Below, in pieces: positions 193-11,560 of a DNA stretch of 13,941 bases (positions are counted from its first letter, which is position 1; each line of letters begins with the position of its first letter). The position numbers and the translations under genes were made by a program. Below the pieces are notes generated by a model, which was not told where the DNA came from, made no database searches, and worked only from the letters and a program-made list of their open reading frames with translations. The stretch spans positions 1-13,941 of the forward strand of contig JAHWKC010000025.1 in assembly GCA_019348095.1 (NCBI GenBank), read 5' to 3'. Origin of the DNA: Pseudomonadota bacterium. GTDB lineage: Bacteria > Pseudomonadota > Gammaproteobacteria > Xanthomonadales > Xanthomonadaceae.

Positions 193-900
193 GTGCAAAA
201 GCGCATATTGATCGTCGAGGACGAACCCGCCATCCGCGACATGGTCGCCTTCGCCCTACGCAAGGGCGAGTACCAGCCGGTCCAGGCCGGCGATGCGCGC
301 GAAGCGCAGAACGCGATTGCCGACCACGTCCCCGACCTCATCCTGCTGGACTGGATGCTGCCCGGCAGCAGCGGCCTGGAACTGGCCCGGCGCTGGCGCA
401 AGGACCCGCTCACGCGCGAGGTGCCGATCATCATGCTGACTGCGCGCGGCGAGGAGAACGACCGGGTCAGCGGACTGGAGGCCGGAGTCGACGACTATGT
501 GGTCAAGCCGTTTTCGGCGCGCGAACTGCTGGCGCGCATCCGCGCGGTGCTGCGGCGCTCGCGTGATGACGAAGAGGACGGCAGCGTCCGGATCGGTCCG
601 CTGCGCATCGACGGCGCCGCGCACCGGGTGTTCGCCCACGCCGAGGGCAGCGAGCAACCGGTGCAGATCGGTCCCACCGAATACCGGCTGCTGCATTTCT
701 TCATGACCCACGCCGAGCGCGTGTACTCGCGCACGCAGCTGCTCGACCATGTCTGGGGCGGCAGCGTGTACGTCGAGGAGCGCACGGTCGACGTGCACAT
801 CCGCCGCCTGCGCAAGACGCTGGAGCCTTATCAGATCGACGGTATGGTGCAGACGGTGCGGGGCGCCGGATATCGCTTCTCGGCATCGGTGGAAGCGTGA
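193..900 (+). CDS. phoB: Phosphate regulon response regulator PhoB
   Basis: This 235-residue OmpR/PhoB-family response regulator should be phosphorylated by PhoR under phosphate limitation and then bind Pho boxes to activate transcription. The receiver domain (about 3-120) has the acidic pair E9/D10, phospho-acceptor D53 in the PhoB-typical LLDWMLPG context, T83 and K105. The C-terminal winged-helix domain (about 135-232) has the family pattern ERTVDVHIRRLRKTLE and ends with VRGAGYRFS. Length is normal for PhoB (about 229 in E. coli). The start is GTG; the first ATG in frame (241) lies inside the receiver core, so it would remove the acidic pocket. There is no strong Shine-Dalgarno. A candidate Pho box lies about 50 bp upstream, and phoR follows after 131 bp containing a repeat. 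Confidence 0.95.
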   Translation: MQKRILIVEDEPAIRDMVAFALRKGEYQPVQAGDAREAQNAIADHVPDLILLDWMLPGSSGLELARRWRKDPLTREVPIIMLTARGEENDRVSGLEAGVDDYVVKPFSARELLARIRAVLRRSRDDEEDGSVRIGPLRIDGAAHRVFAHAEGSEQPVQIGPTEYRLLHFFMTHAERVYSRTQLLDHVWGGSVYVEERTVDVHIRRLRKTLEPYQIDGMVQTVRGAGYRFSASVEA

Positions 901-1031: not shown

Positions 1032-2366
1032 ATGCCATCCCGCGCCCGCACCGCCTGGTTTCGTACGCTCGGCCAGCTTGCCCTGATCCTGGCGGTGGCC
1101 GCGCTGCTCGGCATGCTTGTCGATCAGGTGTGGCCGATGCTCGCCGTGGCCGCGCTGGGCGTGGTTGTCTGGCACCACTGGCGGCTGCGCGGCGTGTTGC
1201 TGCGGCTGGCCGCACGGCAGCGGCTGGCGGCGCCGTCCGGCACGGGCGTCTGGAGCGAGCTCGATCGGCTGCTCCACCGCAGCCAGTACGAGACCCAGGC
1301 CCGGCAACGGCGCCTGATCGAGATGCTGCGCGCCTACCGCGCCGCCGCGGCGGCCCTGCCCGATGCGATCATCGTGGTCGACCGCGACAGCCAGCGCGTG
1401 CTGTGGTTCAGCGAGGCCGCCACCCCGCTGCTCGGCCTGCGCTACCCGCACGACATCGGCGCCTCGCTGGTGCAGCGGCTGCAACCGCTGCCGTTGGCAC
1501 GCTGGATGGCCGGTGGGCGCACCGTCGAGCCACTGGAAACGCCTTCGCCGCTCAACACCTCCATCACCCTGAGCCTGCGGCTGATCCCGTATTCCGAGCA
1601 CCTGTGGCTGCTGGTCGCGCGCGATGTCAGCCGCCTGCTGCAACTGGAGCAGATGCGTCGCGACTTCGTCGCCAACGTCTCGCACGAGCTGCGCACGCCG
1701 CTGACGGTGGTGCACGGCTACCTCGACATGCTCGATGCGGCCGAACACCCCGACTGGGCGCCGATCCTGGCCGAGATGCAGCGCCAGTCGCAGCGCATGA
1801 CGCAACTGGTCGAGGACCTGCTGACCCTGTCGCGGCTGGAGTCGCAGGACAGCCTGCCGGCCGAGGAAACCGTCTCGATGGGGCCGATGCTGCACACGCT
1901 GCGCCGCGAGGCCAACGCACTCAGCCAGGGCCGCCACGAGATCGTGCTCGATGACCGCATCCAGGTCGACCTGTTCGGCTCGAACAAGGAGTTGCACAGC
2001 GCGTTCTCCAACCTGGTCAGCAACGCGGTGCGCTACACCCCGGCCGGCGGCACGGTGACGATCGGCTTTCTGCAGGACGAGGCCTCCGGCGATCGCGAGG
2101 GCGTAGTGCTGGCGGTCAGCGACAGCGGCTACGGCATTCCGCCACACCACCTGCCGCGCATCACCGAACGCTTCTACCGGGTCTCCACCAGCCGCTCGCG
2201 CGAGAGCGGCGGCACCGGGCTGGGATTGGCGATCGTCAAGCACGTCCTGAACCTGCACCAGGCACGGCTCTCGATCGCCAGTGAAGTCGGCCGCGGCAGC
2301 ACCTTCTCCTGCCACTTCGGCGGCGAGCGCGTGCGTCGGCGCGAAGCTGCGGAGGCCACTGCATGA
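1032..2366 (+). CDS. phoR: Phosphate regulon sensor histidine kinase PhoR
   Basis: This 444-residue inner-membrane histidine kinase is the partner of PhoB. It has two closely spaced hydrophobic segments (about 14-31 and 33-47) with almost no periplasmic loop, as in PhoR, so sensing probably goes through the cytoplasmic PAS-like region (about 105-190) and the Pst/PhoU proteins, which are not in this window. The HisKA domain carries phospho-acceptor H218 in VSHELRTPL. The ATPase domain has the N box around N331, D364 in DSGYGIP, and GGTGLGL at 393-399. Length fits the family (431 in E. coli). No good Shine-Dalgarno precedes the ATG. Its TGA overlaps the ppk1 ATG, so translation of the two is probably coupled. 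Confidence 0.95.
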   Translation: MPSRARTAWFRTLGQLALILAVAALLGMLVDQVWPMLAVAALGVVVWHHWRLRGVLLRLAARQRLAAPSGTGVWSELDRLLHRSQYETQARQRRLIEMLRAYRAAAAALPDAIIVVDRDSQRVLWFSEAATPLLGLRYPHDIGASLVQRLQPLPLARWMAGGRTVEPLETPSPLNTSITLSLRLIPYSEHLWLLVARDVSRLLQLEQMRRDFVANVSHELRTPLTVVHGYLDMLDAAEHPDWAPILAEMQRQSQRMTQLVEDLLTLSRLESQDSLPAEETVSMGPMLHTLRREANALSQGRHEIVLDDRIQVDLFGSNKELHSAFSNLVSNAVRYTPAGGTVTIGFLQDEASGDREGVVLAVSDSGYGIPPHHLPRITERFYRVSTSRSRESGGTGLGLAIVKHVLNLHQARLSIASEVGRGSTFSCHFGGERVRRREAAEATA

Positions 2367-4468
2367 CCCGGAAGAACGACGAGTCCGAGCGCAGCGCGAA
2401 ATCCGCGGGCGAGCCCGACCCGCTGCGCGATCCTTCGCTGTACTTCAACCGTGAGCTGTCGCAGCTGGACTTCAACTTCCGCGTGCTCGCCCAGGCGCAG
2501 GACCCGCAGATGCCTTTGCTGGAGCGGCTGCGCTACCTGTGCATTTCCTGCACCAACCTCGACGAATTCTTCGAGATCCGCGCCGGCACCCTGCGCCATG
2601 CACAGGATCTCGGACTGACCCCGGGTCCGGATGCGCTGGCACCGGCGGCGGTGCTGTCGCGGATCCACGACCGCGCCGCCGACCTGGTGGACGCCCAATA
2701 CGAGTGCTGGAACGACGTGCTGCGCCCCGCGCTGGACCAAGCCGGCGTGCGCGTGCTCGCCCGCGACAGCTGGAACTGGAAGCAGACCCGCTGGCTGCGC
2801 GCGTACTTCCGCGACGAGGTCATGCCGGTGCTGTCGCCGCTGGGGCTGGACCCGGCGCACCCGTTCCCCAAGATCCTCAACAAGTCGCTGAACATAGTCG
2901 TCGTGCTGGAAGGCCGCGACGCGTTCGGGCGCGACGGCAACCTGGCGATCGTGCGCGCGCCGCGCTCGCTGCCGCGCATCATCCAGATCCCCCAGCACAT
3001 CTCCGGCGGTCCGCACGACTTCGTCTTTCTGTCGGCAGTGCTGTCGAGCTTCGTCGATGAACTGTTCCCGGGCATGCAGGTCAAGGGCGCGTACCAGTTC
3101 CGCGTGACCCGCAACTCCGAGCTGCTGGTCGACGAGGAGGAGGTGGACAACATCGCGCTGGCTCTGCGCGACGAGCTGGTCGGCCGCGGCTACCTGCGCG
3201 CGGTGCGGCTGGAGATCGCCGGACAGTGCCCCGAGCCGATCGTGCGCAGCCTGCTGAAGAACTTCGACCTCAACGAGAACGCGGTGTACCGCATCAACGG
3301 CCCGGTCAATCTCAACCGGGTGATCCAGGTCTATGACCTGGTGGCCCGTCCGGACCTGAAATTCCCACCCTTCCAGCCGCGGCTGATGGTGGGCGTGGAT
3401 GCGATGTTCGACCGCATCGGCCAGGGCGACGTGCTGCTGCACCATCCCTTCGATGCGTTCGCGCCGGTGCTGGAGCTGCTGCGCCAGGCGGCCGAGGATC
3501 CGAGCGTGCTGGCGATCAAGCAGACCCTGTACCGCGCCGGCAAGGACTCGCCGATCGTCGAGCAGCTGGTGCAGGCCGCGCGCAACGGCAAGGACGTGAC
3601 GGTGGTGGTCGAGCTGCGCGCGCGCTTCGACGAGGAGGCCAACCTGGACTTCGCCGATCGCCTGCAGGAGGCCGGGGTGCAGGTCGTCTACGGCGTGGTC
3701 GGCTACAAGACCCACGCCAAGATGCTGCTGATCGTGCGCCGCGAGGGCCGCCAGCTGCGTCGCTACGTGCACCTGGGCACCGGCAACTACCACGCCGGCA
3801 ATGCCCGCGTGTACACCGATTTCGGGCTGATCAGCGCCAACCCCGACATCGGCAACGACGTGCACCTGATCTTCCAGCAGTTATCGGGCCTGGCTCCGGC
3901 CATCAAGCTGAAATGCCTGATGCAGGCCCCGTTCACGCTGCACGCCGGCGTGCTGATGCGGATCGATCGCGAGACGCGCAACGCGCGAGCCGGGCAACCC
4001 GCGCGCATCGTCGCCAAGATGAACGCACTCAACGAGCCGCAGGTGGTGCGCGCGCTGTACCGCGCCTCTCAGGCAGGAGTGCAGATCGAGTTGATCGTGC
4101 GCGGCGCCTGCACGTTGCGGCCCGGCGTTCCGGGCATTTCCGACAACATCCGGGTGCGCTCCATCGTCGGGCGTTTCCTCGAGCACAGCCGGGTGTACTG
4201 GTTCGCCAACGGCGGCCAGCCCGACCTGTTCGCGGCCAGCGCCGACTGGCTGGAGCGCAACCTGCTGCGGCGGGTCGAGGTCGGCTTCCCAATCCTCAAT
4301 CCCGACCTCGCGATGCGCATCACCGACGAGGCGATCGGCAACTACCTGACCGACAACTGCAACGCCTGGGAGCTGCAGCCCGACGGCGAGTACCTGCGCC
4401 TGGTGCCGCCAGCCGACGCCACGCCCCATTCCGCGCAAGCCGCGCTGCTGGCCAAGATCTGCACATGA
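2363..4468 (+). CDS. ppk1: Polyphosphate kinase 1
   Basis: The 701-residue enzyme reversibly transfers the ATP gamma-phosphate to inorganic polyphosphate. The N-terminal domain begins with the hallmark YFNRELSQLDFN and continues with CTNLDEFFEIR. The two phospholipase-D-like catalytic domains follow. H451 in YKTHAKM corresponds to the autophosphorylated histidine (H435 in E. coli) and H470 in VHLGTGNYH to H454; the spacing of 19 is conserved. PPK1 signatures IKQTLYRAG and ARFDEEANLDFADRL are present. Length is near the usual 690-700. The gene starts inside the phoR stop (ATGA) and its own TGA overlaps the ppx ATG. This makes one translationally coupled unit linking phosphate sensing to polyphosphate metabolism, probably transcribed from the phoB promoter. 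Confidence 0.97.
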   Translation: MTRKNDESERSAKSAGEPDPLRDPSLYFNRELSQLDFNFRVLAQAQDPQMPLLERLRYLCISCTNLDEFFEIRAGTLRHAQDLGLTPGPDALAPAAVLSRIHDRAADLVDAQYECWNDVLRPALDQAGVRVLARDSWNWKQTRWLRAYFRDEVMPVLSPLGLDPAHPFPKILNKSLNIVVVLEGRDAFGRDGNLAIVRAPRSLPRIIQIPQHISGGPHDFVFLSAVLSSFVDELFPGMQVKGAYQFRVTRNSELLVDEEEVDNIALALRDELVGRGYLRAVRLEIAGQCPEPIVRSLLKNFDLNENAVYRINGPVNLNRVIQVYDLVARPDLKFPPFQPRLMVGVDAMFDRIGQGDVLLHHPFDAFAPVLELLRQAAEDPSVLAIKQTLYRAGKDSPIVEQLVQAARNGKDVTVVVELRARFDEEANLDFADRLQEAGVQVVYGVVGYKTHAKMLLIVRREGRQLRRYVHLGTGNYHAGNARVYTDFGLISANPDIGNDVHLIFQQLSGLAPAIKLKCLMQAPFTLHAGVLMRIDRETRNARAGQPARIVAKMNALNEPQVVRALYRASQAGVQIELIVRGACTLRPGVPGISDNIRVRSIVGRFLEHSRVYWFANGGQPDLFAASADWLERNLLRRVEVGFPILNPDLAMRITDEAIGNYLTDNCNAWELQPDGEYLRLVPPADATPHSAQAALLAKICT

Positions 4469-5994
4469 ACGGACTGCTGCACACCGCGCCATTGCCGCTG
4501 CAGGACGGCGACCTGCTGGCCGCGGTCGATCTGGGTTCCAACAGCTTCCATATGGTCGTCTCGCGCTACCTGCTCGGGCAGTTGCGCACCGTCGACCGGC
4601 TGCGCGAGCCGGTACGGCTGGCCGAGGGGCTGGACCGCAAGGGTGGGCTGTCGGCCGATGCGCGTTCGCGCGCGCTCGACTGCCTGTCGCGGTTCGGCCA
4701 GCGCGTACGCGACATCCCGCCGCAGCGCGTGCGTGCGCTGGCGACCAACACCGTGCGCCGGCTGGCCTCGCCGCAGGCCTTCCTGATGCCGGCCGAGAGT
4801 GCGCTGGGGCATGCGATCGAAGTGGTGGCCGGGCGCGAGGAGGCGCGGCTGGTCTACCTCGGCGTCGCCCACGCGCAGCCGCCCAAGGAGGGCCACCTGC
4901 GCCTGGTGATCGATATTGGCGGCGGTTCGACCGAATGCATCATCGGCGCCGGTTTCGAGGCGATCGAGCGCGAGAGCCTGCAGGTCGGCTGTGTCGCCAG
5001 CACCCGGCGGTTCTTCGGCACCGGCAAGTTGTCGAGCAAGCGCTGGCACGCGGCGGTGGCCGAGATCGCCGCGGAATTCCAGCAGTTCGCCGGCACCTAC
5101 CGCAGCCTCGGCTGGGACGAGGTAATCGGCACTTCGGGTACCAACAAGGCGATCGGCGAGATCTGCGCGGCGATGAAGCTGACCAAGGGCGCGGTCACCG
5201 CCGAGGCACTGCCGCAGGTCCGCGATCGGCTGCTGCAGGCCGCGCGCATCGAGGACATCGACCTGCCCGGGCTGTCACCGGACCGCCGTCCGGTGATCGC
5301 CGGCGGGGTGCTGGTGCTGGAGGCCGCCTTCGAGGCGCTGGGGCTGCAGCGCATGATGGTCAGCAAGGCGGCGATGCGCGAGGGCATGCTCCACGACATG
5401 CTCGGCCGTGGCGGCGCCAACGACCCGCGCGAGGCGTCGGTGGCGGCGCTGATGCACCGCTATGGCATCGACGCCACCCAGGCCGCGCGGGTGGAGGCCA
5501 CCGCGTTGCGGCTGTTCGCGCAGGTCGCGCAAGCCTGGCAACTGGTCGACGACGACCGCCTGATGCTGGTGCGCGCCGCGCGCCTGCACGAGCTCGGCCT
5601 GACCATCGCGCATAGTCAATATCACGTGCACGGCTCCTACGTGGTCGAGCATTCCGACATCGCCGGTTTCTCGCGCCAGCAGCAACAGTTCCTGGCCGCG
5701 CTGATCCGTACCCATCGCCGGCGCATCCCCAAGAGCGCGTTCGATGCCCTGCCCGACCGGCTGCTCGCGCCGGTCCGCCGCAGCGCCGCCCTGCTGCGCC
5801 TGGCGGTGCTGCTGCACCGCGCCCACGAGGCCGACCCGATCCCGCAGCTGGACCTGCAGGCCGAAGGCGACGGCCTGCGGCTGACGCTGGCCAGGCGCTG
5901 GCTCGACGCGCGCCCGCTGCTCAAGGCCGACCTGCACGGCGAGCCCGAGGACGCCGCCGACCTCGGCATCACGCTGGCGATCGAGACCGCGTAG
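4465..5994 (+). CDS. ppx: Exopolyphosphatase (Ppx/GppA family)
   Basis: This 509-residue enzyme should remove terminal phosphate from polyphosphate, opposing Ppk1. The first ATPase-like domain has DLGSNSFHMVV (from D22); the second phosphate loop is DIGGGSTE (from D150). The catalytic glutamate region GREEARLVYLG has E125/E126. The C-terminal half carries the HD-like domain, with LHELGLTIAHSQYHVHGSYVVEHS around residues 372-396. Length matches Ppx (513 in E. coli). The ATG at 4465 was chosen because the Ppx N-terminus begins there and it overlaps the ppk1 stop. The frame is open back to 3913, but that extension lies inside ppk1 and encodes low-complexity, arginine-rich peptide. GppA-type guanosine pentaphosphatase activity is possible, but linkage to ppk1 favours Ppx. 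Confidence 0.95.
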   Translation: MNGLLHTAPLPLQDGDLLAAVDLGSNSFHMVVSRYLLGQLRTVDRLREPVRLAEGLDRKGGLSADARSRALDCLSRFGQRVRDIPPQRVRALATNTVRRLASPQAFLMPAESALGHAIEVVAGREEARLVYLGVAHAQPPKEGHLRLVIDIGGGSTECIIGAGFEAIERESLQVGCVASTRRFFGTGKLSSKRWHAAVAEIAAEFQQFAGTYRSLGWDEVIGTSGTNKAIGEICAAMKLTKGAVTAEALPQVRDRLLQAARIEDIDLPGLSPDRRPVIAGGVLVLEAAFEALGLQRMMVSKAAMREGMLHDMLGRGGANDPREASVAALMHRYGIDATQAARVEATALRLFAQVAQAWQLVDDDRLMLVRAARLHELGLTIAHSQYHVHGSYVVEHSDIAGFSRQQQQFLAALIRTHRRRIPKSAFDALPDRLLAPVRRSAALLRLAVLLHRAHEADPIPQLDLQAEGDGLRLTLARRWLDARPLLKADLHGEPEDAADLGITLAIETA

Positions 5995-6117: not shown

Positions 6118-6157
6118 ATGTCACGTCCGGGTCATCCCACTGACACTGCGGTTTCAT
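6118..6157 (+). promoter_or_regulatory. Four-unit Pho box array upstream of the glycosyltransferase
   Basis: Four heptamers start exactly 11 bp apart: ATGTCAC (6118), GGGTCAT (6129), CTGACAC (6140) and GTTTCAT (6151). Each matches the PhoB consensus CTGTCAT at 5 of 7 positions, and each is followed by a 4-bp spacer. Four in-phase units fit two adjacent PhoB dimer sites. The array ends 43 bp before the ATG at 6201. I see no convincing -10 downstream. Phase and location make this the best regulatory site in the window, though unproven. Confidence 0.6.
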
Positions 6158-6200
6158 CCGATCAACGCAAGCTGCCCGCCGACGCCGGAGGGGCTCACGC

Positions 6201-7349
6201 ATGCGCTACGCGATCGTCACCGAGACCTATCCCCCGGAAGTCAACGGCGTCGCGCTGACCGTGCAGGGGCTGGAGCTCGGTCTGCGCGCACGCGGCCACC
6301 GGGTCGACCTGGTGCGCCCGCGCCAGGCGGCCGATGGCGACGGCGGGACCCATGAGATGCTGGTGCGCGGCATGCCGCTGCCGCGCTATCCGGGGCTGCG
6401 GCTGGGCCTGCCGGCCACCGCGCGACTCGCGGCGCAGTGGCGGCACGCGCGGCCGGATGCGGTGTATGTCGCCACCGAAGGGCCGCTCGGCTGGTCGGCG
6501 CTGCGCGCGGCCAGGCGGCTCGGCATTCCGGTCGCGACCGGCTTCCACACCCGCTTCGATCACTACATGCGCGACTATGGCTTCGGTTGGCTGAGCGGCG
6601 CCGCGCTGGGCTGGATGCGCCGTTTCCACAACCGCGCCGACGCGACGCTGGTGCCGACGCGCGAACTGGCGGCGTTGCTGCAGGCAAGCGGCTTTGCCCG
6701 CCCGGTGCGGCTGCCGCGTGCGGTCGACACCCGCGCGTTCGATCCGGCGCGGCGCGATCCGGCGTTGCGCGCGCAATGGGGCGTGGGCGAGCAAGGCTTC
6801 GCTGCGATCTACGTCGGCCGCATCGCCGCGGAGAAGAATCTCGATCTCGCCGTGCGCGCATTCCGCCGCCTGCAGCGCGCGCGTGCCGATGCGCGTTTCG
6901 TATGGGTCGGCGACGGACCGGCGCGCTCGCAACTGCAGGCGGCGCATCCGGACTTCATCTTCTGCGGGGTGCAACGCGGTGCGGACCTGCCGCGGCATTT
7001 CGCCAGCGGCGACCTGTTCCTGTTCCCGAGCCACAGCGAGACCTTCGGCAACGTGACGCTGGAGGCCATGGCCAGCGGCGTGCCGACGGTGGCGTTCGAT
7101 TACGGTGCGGCGCGCGAGCACCTGCGCGACGGGCTGCACGGTGCGGCGATCGCCGACGGCGACGACGCGGGGTTCATCGCCGCCGCCGCGCGCATCGCCG
7201 GCGACGAGGCCGGCCGCGCGGCGATGTCACGCGCCACACGCGCGGCGACCGCAGGCCTGCGCCCCGAGCAGGTCGCGGCCGATCTGGACGTGCTGCTGGA
7301 AGGCCTTGCCCATTCCGGACGACACCATGAATCGACTGCCTCTGCATAA
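6201..7349 (+). CDS. GT4-family glycosyltransferase
   Basis: This 382-residue retaining GT-B enzyme resembles the MgtA/PimB-like branch of family 4, which transfers hexose (often mannose or glucose) from a nucleotide sugar to a lipid or glycan. The N-terminal half starts with the acceptor-side motif TETYPPEVNGVA and has the GFHTRFDHY segment. The C-terminal half has VGRIAAEKNL with R207 and K212, expected to bind donor phosphates, and the EX7E motif, E280 and E288, in SETFGNVTLEA. No membrane helix is obvious, so it is probably cytoplasmic or peripheral. A good Shine-Dalgarno (GGAGG, 6187-6191) supports the ATG. A Pho-box array is upstream and the PAP2 gene overlaps its end by 23 bp. A diacylglycerol acceptor is inferred from context; the true donor and acceptor cannot be read from sequence. 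Confidence 0.88.
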   Translation: MRYAIVTETYPPEVNGVALTVQGLELGLRARGHRVDLVRPRQAADGDGGTHEMLVRGMPLPRYPGLRLGLPATARLAAQWRHARPDAVYVATEGPLGWSALRAARRLGIPVATGFHTRFDHYMRDYGFGWLSGAALGWMRRFHNRADATLVPTRELAALLQASGFARPVRLPRAVDTRAFDPARRDPALRAQWGVGEQGFAAIYVGRIAAEKNLDLAVRAFRRLQRARADARFVWVGDGPARSQLQAAHPDFIFCGVQRGADLPRHFASGDLFLFPSHSETFGNVTLEAMASGVPTVAFDYGAAREHLRDGLHGAAIADGDDAGFIAAAARIAGDEAGRAAMSRATRAATAGLRPEQVAADLDVLLEGLAHSGRHHESTASA

Positions 7350-7878
7350 GCGACTGGCCGATGGCGATTCGGGCTGGTGCCTGCGCGCCAACCGCTGGGG
7401 CGGGCAAAACCGCTCGCGGCGGTTCTTTGCGGCGATCAGCCGGCTCGGCGATGGCGTGTTCTGGTACGTGCTGATGGCGGCGATGGTGGCCGCCGACGGA
7501 CTGGCCGGACTGCTCGCCTCCGCCCACCTGGCCGCAACCGGAGTGGTCGCATTGAGCTTGTACAAGCTGCTCAAGCGCTGGACCCGCCGGCCCCGCCCGT
7601 TCGCGAGCGATCGCCGCATCCGCGCGTGGGTCGCGCCGCTGGACGAGTTCAGCTTTCCGTCGGGCCACACCCTGCACGCGGTCGCCTTCAGCATCGTGGC
7701 GATCGCGCACTACCCGGCACTGGCCTGCCTGCTGGTGCCGTTCACCGCGTGCGTGGCGGCTTCACGGCTGGTGCTCGGCCTGCACTACCCGAGCGACGTG
7801 GTGGCGGCCAGCGCGATCGGGGCCGCGCTGGCTGCAGCATCGATGTCACTTGCGCCGGTCGGGTGGTACCCGGCATAG
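7327..7878 (+). CDS. PAP2-family membrane phosphatase
   Basis: This 183-residue integral membrane phosphatase has the complete PAP2 signature: K-x6-RP at 83-91, PSGH at 111-114, and SR-x5-H-x3-D with S146, R147, H153 and D157. These residues form the phosphohistidine active site used on phosphatidic acid, undecaprenyl pyrophosphate or related lipid phosphates. Hydrophobic segments lie at about 45-80, 116-140 and 158-176, consistent with several helices. The ATG at 7327 lies within the glycosyltransferase gene (23-bp overlap), suggesting translational coupling. The frame is open upstream to 7105, but that part is a shadow of the transferase. Substrate is not decidable from sequence. Beside a GT4 enzyme and Pho boxes, making diacylglycerol from phosphatidate is attractive; undecaprenyl-pyrophosphate recycling is the main alternative. 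Confidence 0.9.
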   Translation: MNRLPLHKRLADGDSGWCLRANRWGGQNRSRRFFAAISRLGDGVFWYVLMAAMVAADGLAGLLASAHLAATGVVALSLYKLLKRWTRRPRPFASDRRIRAWVAPLDEFSFPSGHTLHAVAFSIVAIAHYPALACLLVPFTACVAASRLVLGLHYPSDVVAASAIGAALAAASMSLAPVGWYPA

Positions 7879-7957: not shown

Positions 7958-8332
7958 TCAACCCGGCGGCAAGCCGGCTTCGGAGCGCGCCCGATGTGCG
8001 GCCGCAGGACCGCCCATCCGGTACCAGTCGACCCTGCGGGTGACCGCCATCAGCGCCGCCAGGACCACGAACAACAGGCCTGCCCCAAGCACCAGCGCGT
8101 TGTCCTCCGACACCAGCAAGCCATATAGCACCGCATACAGGGTCGTCAGCATTGCGGCAAAACCCAGCGCCCGCCGCAGGCTGCGCAGTACCGCGCTCAG
8201 ATAGAAGGTGATCAGCCCGATGCAGGCCACGCCGGCCACCAGGTACGACCAGCCGAACGCGAAATGCTCGCTGAGGCTGAGCTGAGGTATGGACAAGGCG
8301 ACCACCATCGTTATCTTCATCCAAAGTCGCAT
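7958..8332 (-). CDS. creD: Short CreD-derived inner-membrane protein (internal deletion)
   Basis: The 124-residue product ends like the C-terminus of CreD: LSEHFAFGWSYLVAG, VLRSLRRALGFAAML, LLVSEDNALVLGAGLLF and TRRVDWYRM. CreD is usually about 450 residues, so most of the protein, including the large periplasmic part, is missing. The first 15 or so residues (MRLWMKITMVVALSIP) look like a normal CreD start, joined in frame to the C-terminal helices near residues 16-18. Three full membrane segments remain (about 28-47, 56-72, 77-97). The ATG has a good Shine-Dalgarno (GGGAG, six bases upstream), and a CreB tag lies about 70 bp upstream. It is either a decaying remnant or a minimal membrane protein still controlled by CreB. 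It follows creC, as in other cre loci. Confidence 0.75.
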   Translation of the reverse strand: MRLWMKITMVVALSIPQLSLSEHFAFGWSYLVAGVACIGLITFYLSAVLRSLRRALGFAAMLTTLYAVLYGLLVSEDNALVLGAGLLFVVLAALMAVTRRVDWYRMGGPAAAHRARSEAGLPPG

Positions 8333-8399
8333 CCCGCACTCCCGCCATGGCCACCGCCAGCAGGATCGGCAGCGACGGTGTGCGCACCGCGGGGCGGGG

Positions 8400-8415
8400 A
8401 TGAAGTGGGAGTGAA
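8400..8415 (-). promoter_or_regulatory. CreB-binding tag upstream of creD
   Basis: On the minus strand this reads TTCAC-TCCCAC-TTCAT, matching the CreB (BlrA) tag TTCAC-N6-TTCAC at 9 of 10 fixed positions. Another TTCAC lies just upstream (8424-8428), 8 bp from the first half. The site is in the 131-bp gap between the creC stop and the creD start, where CreB-controlled creD promoters occur in other species. Confidence 0.7.
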
Positions 8416-8463
8416 GCGCGGCGGTGAAACACCGGACCCGCCGCAGGTCTAAGAAGCGCGGTC

Positions 8464-9894
8464 CTATGAAGCAAGCGGCAATGCCAGTCTGGCCGCCGCG
8501 CCGCCACCGTCGCGGTTGTCCAGGCTCGCCCGGCCGCCGTGCAGGGCGGCCACCTCGGCGACGAAACACAGGCCCAGTCCACTGCTGCGGCTGCCGCCGG
8601 CGGGGCGCGACAGCGAATAGAAACGCTCGAACACCCGCGGCAGGGCGTAGTCGGGGATGCCGGGGCCGCGGTCGAGTACTTGCAGGACGGCCTGATCGCC
8701 CACTGCTTCCAGCCGCAGCTCGATCGCGCTCCCGGCCGGGGCGAAGTCGATCGCGTTGCCGATCAGGTTCGCCAGCGCCTGCCGCAGCAGGAACGCGTCG
8801 CCCTCGACCGGGCCGACCTCGGCCAGCTGCAGTCGCAGCTCCAGCCCTGCCCGTTCGATCGAGGACGCCGACAACTCCGCCACCTCAACCGCCAGGCTCG
8901 CCAGGTCGAGCGCCTCGGGGCTTTCGAGCCGCTGTCGATGCTCCACCGCCGCCAGCGCCAGCAACTTGTCGATCATCTGCGCCAGCCGCTCGCTCTGGAC
9001 ACGGATGCTTTCGGCAAAGCGCACGCGATCGGCCTCCGGCAGCGGCGCTTCCAGCAGTTCGGCACTGCTGCGTATCGCCGCCAGCGGGCTCTTCATCTCG
9101 TGGGTCAGGCCGTGCACGTACTGCTCGACGTACTGCTTGCCCTCCAGACGCGCGCGCATGGTCTCCAGCGCCTGGCCCAGCTCGGCGAACTCACCGGCCG
9201 CAGCAGGCAGGCTGGCCCGTTCGCCCGCGGTCACCGCGTGCGCGTAGCGACGCAGGCCGCCAAGCTGGCGCGACAGCCACCATGCCGCGACCAGTCCCAC
9301 CAGCAGCGCCACGCCCATCAGCACCGCGCCCCAGCGCAGTACGACCGCCTGGCTGCGCTGGATGAACGGCTGCAGTGCACTGTTGGGCTTGGCTACGGTC
9401 AGCACCCCGATGATCGCGCCGCGCGCGTCGTGGATCGGCGCGGCGACGTGCATCACGGTGGAGTCCGGGTCATCGGAATCAGCCTGGGTGGAGCGCGCGC
9501 CATAGCGGCCGCGCAGGGTCAGGTGCACATCGTTCCAGCGGGAGTAGTCGGCGCCCAGCGCCTGCCCGCTGCTGTCGAACACCACGATGCCGCGGGCGTC
9601 GGTCACATACACCCGGTAGCTGGCCCCGCGCTTGTCGAAGCCCCATATCTCGGCGCCGAAGTCGCGCCCGGCCACCTCGCGCACGCGCCGGGCGAAGGGG
9701 CCGCTGGTGATCCGGCCGGCGAGCAGGTCGTCGGTCGCCAGCTCGGCCAGCACATTGGCGGTATCGACCAGGGTGTCCTCCATCGCCTGGCGCACGCCGG
9801 GCTTGACCTGCGCGACGAACACCTGCGCCAGCAGCAAGGCCGCCAGCGCGACGATCAGGAAGTAGCCGAGGAATATCCGCAGGCCGATCTTCAA
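8464..9894 (-). CDS. creC: Sensor histidine kinase CreC
   Basis: This 476-residue membrane histidine kinase is the partner of CreB (the system called BlrAB in Aeromonas), linked elsewhere to carbon metabolism and beta-lactam response. It has an N-terminal membrane helix (about 7-27), the CreC-typical segment VKPGVRQAMEDTLVDTANVLAE, a periplasmic sensor region with PAS/Cache-like character, a second helix (about 188-208) and a HAMP region. HisKA follows with H265 in YVHGLTHEMKSPLAAI. The ATPase domain contains NLIGNAIDFAP, DRGPGIP and SSGLGLCFV. Length matches CreC (474 in E. coli). The start is TTG at 9892-9894: it lines up with the CreC N-terminus and has a GAGG Shine-Dalgarno eight bases upstream. 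It lies 36 bp after creB and precedes creD. Confidence 0.93.
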   Translation of the reverse strand: MKIGLRIFLGYFLIVALAALLLAQVFVAQVKPGVRQAMEDTLVDTANVLAELATDDLLAGRITSGPFARRVREVAGRDFGAEIWGFDKRGASYRVYVTDARGIVVFDSSGQALGADYSRWNDVHLTLRGRYGARSTQADSDDPDSTVMHVAAPIHDARGAIIGVLTVAKPNSALQPFIQRSQAVVLRWGAVLMGVALLVGLVAAWWLSRQLGGLRRYAHAVTAGERASLPAAAGEFAELGQALETMRARLEGKQYVEQYVHGLTHEMKSPLAAIRSSAELLEAPLPEADRVRFAESIRVQSERLAQMIDKLLALAAVEHRQRLESPEALDLASLAVEVAELSASSIERAGLELRLQLAEVGPVEGDAFLLRQALANLIGNAIDFAPAGSAIELRLEAVGDQAVLQVLDRGPGIPDYALPRVFERFYSLSRPAGGSRSSGLGLCFVAEVAALHGGRASLDNRDGGGAAARLALPLAS

Positions 9895-9930: not shown

Positions 9931-10605
9931 TCACTGCACATCGAGCGAATACCCCAGTCCGCGATGGGTGCGGACCGGGTCCGCCGCGGCGTCGACCTCG
10001 TGCAACTTGGCCCGCAAGGTCTTGACGTGGGTGTCGACGGTGCGGTCGCCGCTGTCGAGCGCATCGCCCCAGACCCGGTCCATCAACTGCGCCCGCGACA
10101 GCACCGCGCCCGGTCGTTGCAGCAGCGCGGCGAGCAGGCCGTACTCGTAGCGGGTCAGCTCCAGCGACCGGCCGCGGAAGCGGATGCGCTTGCCCGCCGG
10201 GTCGTGTTCGAAGCCACCCACGGCGCATGCATCGGCCTGCGCGGCTTGGACGCGCCGCAGCACCACCCGTACCCGTGCCACCAGCTCGCGCGGCGAGAAG
10301 GGTTTGGTCACGTAGTCGTCGGCGCCGATCTCCAGCCCCAGGATGCGGTCGGCCTCGGCGCCCTGGGCGGTCAGGAAGATCACCGGCAACTCGCGCCCGC
10401 GGCGCAGTTCGCGACACAGCGCGAAGCCGCCGATATCGGGCAGGCCGACATCGAGCACGGCCAGCGCGAAGACCTCCGTCGCCGCCCGCCGCAACGCCTC
10501 GCCGCCGGTCAGGCAGTGCACCGGATCGAAACCTTCCGCGCGCAGCGCGTACTGCACCGTGTCGGCGATCGCCGGTTCGTCTTCGACCAGGAGGATGCGG
10601 GGCAT
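9931..10605 (-). CDS. creB: Response regulator CreB
   Basis: This 224-residue OmpR-family regulator should be phosphorylated by CreC and bind TTCAC-N6-TTCAC tags. The receiver has E8/D9, phospho-acceptor D52 in LDVGLPDIGG, T79 and K101. The winged-helix DNA-binding domain (about 125-222) contains LTRYEYGLLAALLQRPG and DRTVDTHVKTLRAKL, and ends THRGLGYSLDVQ. Length matches CreB (229 in E. coli). The ATG at 10603-10605 was chosen because MPRILLVEDE is the normal start. An upstream in-frame ATG (10689) would add 28 arginine-rich residues and overlap the divergent rlmJ start. No clear Shine-Dalgarno is visible. The assignment as CreB, not another OmpR regulator, rests on the adjacent creC and creD. 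Confidence 0.92.
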   Translation of the reverse strand: MPRILLVEDEPAIADTVQYALRAEGFDPVHCLTGGEALRRAATEVFALAVLDVGLPDIGGFALCRELRRGRELPVIFLTAQGAEADRILGLEIGADDYVTKPFSPRELVARVRVVLRRVQAAQADACAVGGFEHDPAGKRIRFRGRSLELTRYEYGLLAALLQRPGAVLSRAQLMDRVWGDALDSGDRTVDTHVKTLRAKLHEVDAAADPVRTHRGLGYSLDVQ

Positions 10606-10652
10606 GGGCGGGCCGATTCGGTCGCGATGGCAAGTCCGGACAGGATAAGCCA

Positions 10653-10670
10653 GCCGCCAGCGTCGGCGGC
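10653..10670. other. Hairpin in the creB/rlmJ divergent promoter region
   Basis: GCCGCC and GGCGGC form a perfect 6-bp stem around AGCGTC, 17 bp before the rlmJ ATG. It lies in the 82-bp gap that must contain the start signals for both divergent genes. It might be an operator dyad or chance in GC-rich DNA. No clear -35/-10 pair was seen. Confidence 0.25.
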
Positions 10671-10687
10671 GGGCTACCCTGTCGCCC

Positions 10688-11560
10688 ATGAACTACCGCC
10701 ACGCGTTCCATGCCGGCAACCACGCCGATGTCCTCAAGCACGTCACCCTGCTGGCGCTGTGCGATGCACTGGCGGCCAAGCCGGCGCCGCTGTTCGCGCT
10801 CGACACCCACGCCGGGCGCGGGCTGTATGCGCTCGATGGCAATTCCGCCCAGCGCAGCGGCGAGGCCGAGGGCGGGGTGTCGCGGCTGCTGGCCGAAGCG
10901 CCGAAGCACCCCGCGATCGGACGCTACCTGGCCGCGGTCAAGGCCTGCCGCCTCGAACACGGCCCGGCGACCTACCCCGGATCGCCGTGGCTGCTGGCGC
11001 ACGCATTGCGCGAGGCCGACCGCGTCGCCGCCTGCGAGTTGCTGCCCGAGGAGGCAGCCCAGCTCAAGGTCAACTTCGACCGCGACCCGCGCGTGGCGGT
11101 GCACGCGCGCGACGGTTATGCCGCAATGAAGGCCCTGCTCCCCCCAACGCTGCTGAAAGCCGGGGGCAGCCCGATGAAGTTCGCCCGCGGGCTGGTCCTG
11201 ATCGACCCGCCCTACGAGGCGCAACTGGAGGAGTTCGACCACATCATCGGCGCGCTGCGCGAAGCGCTGGGCCGCTGGCCGAATGCCAGCTATGCGGTGT
11301 GGTATCCGATCAAGCGCCGGCGCTCGCTGCAGCCGTTCTTTCGGCGTGCAGCGACGCTGCCGGTGAAGGCCTCGTTCGTGGCCGAGCTGATGGTCCACCC
11401 CGACGATTCCCCGCTGCGCATGAACGGCAGCGGCCTGTTGCTGCTGAACCCGCCGTGGCAGTTCGGGCAGGGCCTGGGCACGGTGCTGCCGTTGCTGGCC
11501 AAGGCGCTCGGCGAGGCCGGCGCATCGTCGCGGCTGGAGTGGTTGAAGCAGGAAAGCTAG
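10688..11560 (+). CDS. rlmJ: 23S rRNA (adenine(2030)-N6)-methyltransferase RlmJ
   Basis: The 290-residue product matches RlmJ (E. coli YhiR, 280 residues), which uses SAM to methylate N6 of A2030 in 23S rRNA. The start MNYRHAFHAGNHADVLKH is highly characteristic. The SAM-binding motif is DTHAGRG (from D39), and the adenine-N6 catalytic motif DPPY is at 173-176 in LIDPPYE. The C-terminal part keeps YAVWYPIK and MNGSGLLLLNPPWQ, both typical of the family. No strong Shine-Dalgarno precedes the ATG, but the N-terminal homology fixes it. The gene diverges from creB and is convergent with the cation transporter gene, with a REP pair between them. It has no evident functional link to the Cre genes. 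Confidence 0.95.
   Translation: MNYRHAFHAGNHADVLKHVTLLALCDALAAKPAPLFALDTHAGRGLYALDGNSAQRSGEAEGGVSRLLAEAPKHPAIGRYLAAVKACRLEHGPATYPGSPWLLAHALREADRVAACELLPEEAAQLKVNFDRDPRVAVHARDGYAAMKALLPPTLLKAGGSPMKFARGLVLIDPPYEAQLEEFDHIIGALREALGRWPNASYAVWYPIKRRRSLQPFFRRAATLPVKASFVAELMVHPDDSPLRMNGSGLLLLNPPWQFGQGLGTVLPLLAKALGEAGASSRLEWLKQES

Follow-up and report, generated by a model that had tools for sequence, protein, structure and literature searches.

Exchanging phospholipids for glycolipids is one of the major ways in which bacteria respond to phosphate shortage, and it is known mainly through the PlcP-Agt route. Glycolipids and ornithine lipids are both phosphorus-free membrane lipids, and the binding sites of PhoB are direct repeats in 11-bp phase. 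Jones et al. (2021; PMC8528852) describe two glycosyltransferases of this kind in Pseudomonas aeruginosa, Agt1, encoded beside PlcP, and Agt2 (PA0842), which takes UDP-glucuronate and diacylglycerol to form glucuronosyl-diacylglycerol. According to the same report, Agt2 is Pi-induced with a Pho box present, and a plcP mutant retains some glucuronosyl-diacylglycerol, from which its authors infer another supply of diacylglycerol.

The window analysed here, a stretch of 13,941 nucleotides, makes up contig C177 in the genome, 72% complete, of a member of the Xanthomonadaceae (hereafter the family; the class is Gammaproteobacteria). It carries a GT4 glycosyltransferase gene overlapping a PAP2 phosphatase gene, a pair that we are somewhat inclined to read as an operon switched on by PhoB for the synthesis of phosphorus-free glycolipids, with a predicted mechanism.

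Gene organization and the upstream array

Along the plus strand of the window lie phoB, the presumed activator (193..900; TIGR02154, 363 bits, cut-off 296.2), phoR, the sensor kinase of PhoB (1032..2366; TIGR02966, 403.6 bits, cut-off 334.2), ppk1, encoding polyphosphate kinase (2363..4468; TIGR03705, 908.4 bits, cut-off 465.85), and a ppx/gppA-type exopolyphosphatase gene (4465..5994; PF02541 and PF21447; TIGR03706, 317 bits, cut-off 307). A 206-nt gap that holds the array separates ppx from the GT4 gene (6201..7349, 382 aa), which is followed by the PAP2 gene (7327..7878, plus strand, 183 aa) and, on the opposite strand, by a creD-like frame, creC and creB. The initial annotation had placed the pair next to phoBR, which is loosely put: phoB and phoR do lie in the same window, but ppk1 and ppx stand between phoR and the GT4 gene. 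The creD-like frame (7958-8569, minus strand) scores 116.8 bits against a cut-off of 275, and its match covers only positions 342-429, the final 88 of the CreD model, so that creD, next to creB and creC, appears to be truncated.

The array (6118..6157, plus strand) consists of four heptamers in 11-bp phase, that is two Pho boxes: ATGTCAC (6118-6124), GGGTCAT (6129-6135), CTGACAC (6140-6146) and GTTTCAT (6151-6157), ending 43 nt before the GT4 start codon ATG (6201). These CTGTCAT-like repeats, the arrangement expected upstream of a Pho-regulon gene, had been reported in the initial annotation and are borne out by direct reading and by their score of 20/28 against four copies of CTGTCAT. No second four-heptamer array scored at least 18 on either strand of the window, and when the 200-nt upstream region was dinucleotide-shuffled 100 times, no shuffle reached the score of the array. 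The scan of orthologous loci that had been suggested came out in the same sense: among 110 family upstream regions of 200 nt (the window and 109 loci, with 100 dinucleotide shuffles each), the array reached p<0.02 in 97 and fell short of this threshold in 13. At 11-bp phase the family regions scored 18.64 on average, against means of 12.9-13.6 at the nine other phases from 7 to 16; of 60 permuted consensus words the top one, which itself contains the TCAT core of the motif, reached 16.42. The commonest distance from array to start was 37 nt (38/110).

At pstS of the same genome, four heptamers (CTGTCAT, GTGACAC, GCTACAT and CTGTCAG) are likewise in 11-bp phase, and among pstS arrays this one alone serves as evidence; in a scan of 29 pstS loci (540 nt each, without shuffle control), 16 scored at least 18 and 13 below, some of the low-scoring loci being presumably second genes of a tandem pair. 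In the own genome (L114; G000:C332), pstS occurs twice in tandem, and a divergent frame upstream of it, which by eye we take to be porin-like, has a minus-strand 11-bp array with a score of 21 (about 1-1250). Outside the family, the array was significant in 9 of 20 class-level loci and in 35 of 79 named loci (the best among the matches listed), and 22 of 30 Pseudomonas copies are preceded by one at p<=0.02; in some non-family loci without a significant array, the GT4 gene is internal to a longer operon. The PhoB control first proposed for the pair is thus supported by the conservation of the array, its phase specificity and the like array at pstS of the own genome, and as judged from these sequence features the GT4-PAP2 unit is very probably under PhoB control.

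The GT4-PAP2 pair and its neighbourhoods

The two reading frames overlap by 23 nt. The GT4 protein matches PF13439, PF13692 and PF00534, and the PAP2 protein matches PF01569 and carries the three catalytic motifs K-x6-RP, PSGH and SR-x5-H-x3-D, all invariant in 34 aligned relatives, so that the description of a GT4 gene overlapping a PAP2 phosphatase with full catalytic motifs stands.

A GT4 orthologue was found in 129 of 149 family genomes, the own genome included, where matches with E above 1e-40 were scored absent and two copies of 47% identity present. Loci were sampled from 109 of the 128 other GT4-carrying genomes, and in all 109, as in the window, PAP2 lies directly downstream on the same strand, and the start of its alignment falls between 31 nt ahead of and 126 nt beyond the point where the GT4 alignment ends. 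Since ppx was found immediately upstream in many of the family loci but not in all, it seems that array, GT4 and PAP2 move together as one unit. The 20 genomes without GT4 (G003, G021 and G047 among them) are, as read from their sequences, cases in which the unit was lost and the regulator kept: PhoB was above its cut-off in 19 of these 20 and in 21 of 22 genomes with GT4. In one further genome (G004, locus L095), GT4-PAP2 and the array are present, but the search for PstS gave no match above the cut-off of that protein family. A scan of viral contigs with a GT4 from outside the family as query gave no relative.

Among 26 loci outside the family, PAP2 was present in 21, olsB in 8 and plcP in 4, and in three (L199, L202 and L204) olsB, an olsA-like acyltransferase gene, GT4 and PAP2 stand in a row, the olsA-like and olsB calls being based on PF01553 and PF13444 in representatives. 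In the best 80 named loci among the matches listed, a few of which are from family members, PAP2 was found in 38, plcP in 15 and olsB in 13; all three were missing near GT4 in 23, including the six of Pseudomonas. A PAP2 of the same subfamily also lies beside plcP-agt in L181, L194 and L318. Within about 4 kb of GT4, no PAP2 was found in the six named Pseudomonas copies or in many Burkholderiales copies, which suggests that GT4 works there without need of PAP2. Beside the PAP2-less Burkholderiales-type GT4, a conserved divergent membrane-protein-like frame occurs in L250, L278, L283, L307 and L325 (about 3040-3900, minus strand), with QRWDDHRYYHH in several. The olsB and plcP context favours lipid remodelling over polysaccharide synthesis, since both ornithine lipids and glycolipids are free of phosphorus.

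Identity of the two enzymes

The window GT4 contains the EX7E motif (ETFGNVTLE), whose second E is invariant and whose first is present in at least 90% of 15 aligned rows, and is 97% identical to a protein of Lysobacter sp. D1-1-M9. Window-type copies of 45-55% identity occur in 27 genomes outside the family (276 class genomes searched). For a second GT4 type, which shares 33-39% identity with the window GT4, 20 loci were sampled, and 17 of them (18 counting L189) also encode a PlcP-like metallophosphoesterase. A tree of 109 sequences puts 69 of them, from the family, Pseudomonas (all nine copies included) and others, into the window-type clade (support 0.862), whose sister is a 28-sequence PlcP-linked Agt clade, with assayed Agt sequences outside the tree. 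The joint clade is separate from the Mgs-like paralogues (support 0.997), and the window GT4 thus groups with Agt and putative Agt2 proteins. A GT4 of the Mgs-like clade lies directly after PlcP in some family genomes, G068 and G132 (L382, 4809-6856; L386, 5198-6439).

In P. otitidis, a 39% GT4 comes straight after PlcP (C12:224416-225171), which by analogy is the Agt1 arrangement, and one window-type GT4 lies elsewhere in the genome; in all 18 genomes examined from this genus, one GT4 shows 77-100% and another 36-41% identity to the P. otitidis copy. A CysZ-like gene adjoins GT4 in 25 of 30 Pseudomonas loci, and the neighbours, which by sequence reading we take to be CysZ-like, thioredoxin-reductase-like, DegV-like and old-yellow-enzyme-like, agree with those of the PA0842 region. 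The P. aeruginosa copy (PA0842) was not recognised in the protein searches (best 120 listed each) or in the genome searches, and by elimination and gene order the Pseudomonas window-type copies are probably Agt2. The clade shared with the Pseudomonas copies, the position of Agt1 beside PlcP elsewhere and the neighbours of PA0842 make an Agt2 orthologue the most likely identity of the window GT4. The initial annotation had taken it for a glycolipid-forming enzyme, which gains support from neighbourhoods with plcP, olsB and olsA; by homology and context, it is likely a phosphate-starvation diacylglycerol glycosyltransferase, with a UDP-sugar as predicted donor.

The PAP2 protein is, in a structure model, closest in fold to LpxE and YodM, a fold from which the substrate cannot be read. 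Its membrane segments were taken from the helices of the model, hydropathy alone having given overlapping segments. Across the membrane from the active site, K and R are almost absent (in the turn, 1 of 34 rows), and this charge pattern, the reverse of that of PgpB and LpxE, suggests that the active site faces the cytoplasm. That the enzyme is a phosphatidate phosphatase supplying diacylglycerol to GT4 is predicted at about even chances.

PlcP in the family

It had also been proposed that PAP2 is used here in place of PlcP. As a general statement this fails: with PlcP-like proteins counted at E<=1e-25, 84 of the 149 family genomes have GT4 and PlcP, 45 GT4 only, one PlcP only and 19 neither, so that simple replacement as a rule is out, 84 of the 85 PlcP-carrying genomes having GT4 as well. 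The co-occurrence is significant (Fisher p 2.4e-7, with genomes treated as independent and relatedness not corrected), and a PlcP-like protein was found in all 11 named genomes tested. No PlcP match was obtained in the own, 72% complete genome, and among the annotated window genes it is PAP2, not plcP, that adjoins GT4, which departs from a PlcP-Agt operon. Replacement could still hold in the 45 GT4-carrying genomes without detected PlcP. Since GT4 and PlcP co-occur, PAP2 would rather be an additional partner, a second source of diacylglycerol, and it is a candidate here for the kind of second supply inferred in Pseudomonas, although the copies examined there are without an adjacent PAP2.

A PF13444 protein is present in 80 of the 85 PlcP-carrying family genomes, and its gene lies within about 1 kb of PlcP in G006, G056 and G111, as compared by coordinates; the one protein classified is OlsF (NF052615, 710 bits, cut-off 620). 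An OlsF-type gene adjoins a PlcP-like gene in L383 (4797-6506, minus strand) and L384 (about 2977-5630), the equivalog match being to L383 only, and a four-heptamer score of 19 was found upstream in both (without shuffle control). The OlsF-type and PlcP-like pair is a possible second phosphorus-free lipid operon.

Discussion

Built on the computed array, its conservation, gene order, family placement and context, the proposed mechanism would begin with low phosphate, under which phosphorylated PhoB would bind the four-heptamer array and switch both genes on. At the inner membrane, and there probably on the side of the cytoplasm, PAP2 would dephosphorylate phosphatidate and possibly further lipid phosphates, yielding diacylglycerol and recovered phosphate; the Agt2-type GT4, with a UDP-sugar as donor, would then attach glucuronic acid or glucose to this diacylglycerol, the two steps being presumably coupled. 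PlcP, where present, would give diacylglycerol from existing phospholipids in parallel. A stronger version, in which an inverted, cytoplasm-facing PAP2 delivers phosphatidate-derived diacylglycerol directly to GT4 under PhoB, as a PlcP-independent route and perhaps the sole one in PlcP-less members, is put forward tentatively, as less probable than not.

The alternative that survives best, though we consider it rather unlikely, is that PlcP provides the diacylglycerol and PAP2 only recovers phosphate or treats another lipid, such as PG-phosphate or lyso-phosphatidate. The co-occurrence of GT4 with PlcP given above, uncorrected for relatedness, is in its favour, as are the plcP genes near window-type GT4 in 4/26 loci and in 15 of the best 80 named loci and the six named Pseudomonas copies without PAP2 nearby; against it, PlcP was not found in 45 of the 129 GT4-carrying family genomes, and PAP2 is present in every one of the sampled family loci.

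It is improbable that GT4 glycosylates phosphatidylglycerol in the manner of GpgS, with PAP2 serving phosphatidylglycerol synthesis. GpgS (NF053787) is indeed the top NCBIfam match of the window GT4 (136.4 bits), and two more window-type proteins reach 150 and 157 bits, while one PlcP-linked Agt reaches 92 and two are unlisted at E<=1e-20. All these scores are, however, far under the cut-off of 480, and the model separates GT4 types weakly because Mgs-like paralogues also score 101-135 bits; on both grounds the GpgS identity was not adopted. Moreover, neither a deacetylase nor a flippase is among the annotated window genes, and a phospholipid product fits poorly with PhoB control.

A role of the pair in undecaprenyl-phosphate recycling or surface polysaccharide is very improbable. 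PAP2 enzymes can be promiscuous, and the window protein does match the undecaprenyl-diphosphatase SepP (NF047884), weakly, with 48.6 bits against a curated cut-off of 250; yet polysaccharide genes are absent from the annotated window genes, plcP, olsB and olsA occur in neighbourhoods elsewhere, and the PAP2 loops opposite the active site are almost without positive charge, unlike those of PgpB and YbjG.

Hardly to be expected, finally, is that another OmpR-type regulator reads the array, for instance CreB, which is encoded downstream (9931-10689, strand opposite to GT4-PAP2; NF008296, 329 bits, cut-off 273), whose site TTCAC-N6-TTCAC likewise has an 11-bp period and which would suit the T at position 3 of the last heptamer in 44% of arrays: Cre-like consensus words reach 13.3-15.8, below the 18.64 of CTGTCAT, a PhoB-family match was found in all 22 GT4-carrying genomes examined (21 above cut-off) and the second regulator in 4 (at E<=1e-60, tight enough for a divergent CreB to be missed, the window's own scoring 2.2e-63), and the own-genome pstS has a like array.

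The preferred reading therefore remains that of a PhoB-controlled glycolipid operon, and the unit most likely helps to swap phosphorus-containing membrane lipids for sugar-containing ones in this Lysobacter-like bacterium. The putative Agt2-PAP2 operon with its Pho-type array is kept through a large environmental family and recurs in other Gammaproteobacteria. If the reading is true, it gives a second diacylglycerol entry point for glycolipid synthesis, predicts the low-phosphate membrane lipids of Lysobacter and relatives, and offers a testable example of a cytoplasm-facing PAP2 enzyme. No description of a PhoB-controlled GT4-PAP2 pair was found among the entries listed in a literature survey by titles and abstract openings, with subscription papers outside it.

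Compared with PlcP-Agt remodelling in rhizobia, marine bacteria and P. aeruginosa, the locus shares Pho-box control, a GT4 of the sister clade, a predicted glycosyl-diacylglycerol product and, in some window-type loci, a plcP nearby; the partner there is the metallo-phospholipase PlcP, whereas here it is a PAP2 membrane phosphatase. With Agt2 (PA0842), the UDP-glucuronate:diacylglycerol glycosyltransferase, the likeness lies in the window GT4 sharing a clade with Pseudomonas copies, 22/30 of which have the 11-bp array; the six named copies are without PAP2 within about 4 kb. GpgS, the N-acetylglucosaminyl-phosphatidylglycerol synthase, resembles the window protein as a GT4 acting on a glycerolipid and as its top model match, but has deacetylase and flippase partners in place of PAP2 and lies at 136 bits versus a cut-off of 480. 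PgpB, LpxE and YodM carry K/R residues across the membrane from their active site, and there the window-type PAP2 has almost none. The type of system and the kind of GT4 are thus already known, and the PAP2 partner in a glycolipid role, with its likely orientation, seems to be new as far as the literature was surveyed.
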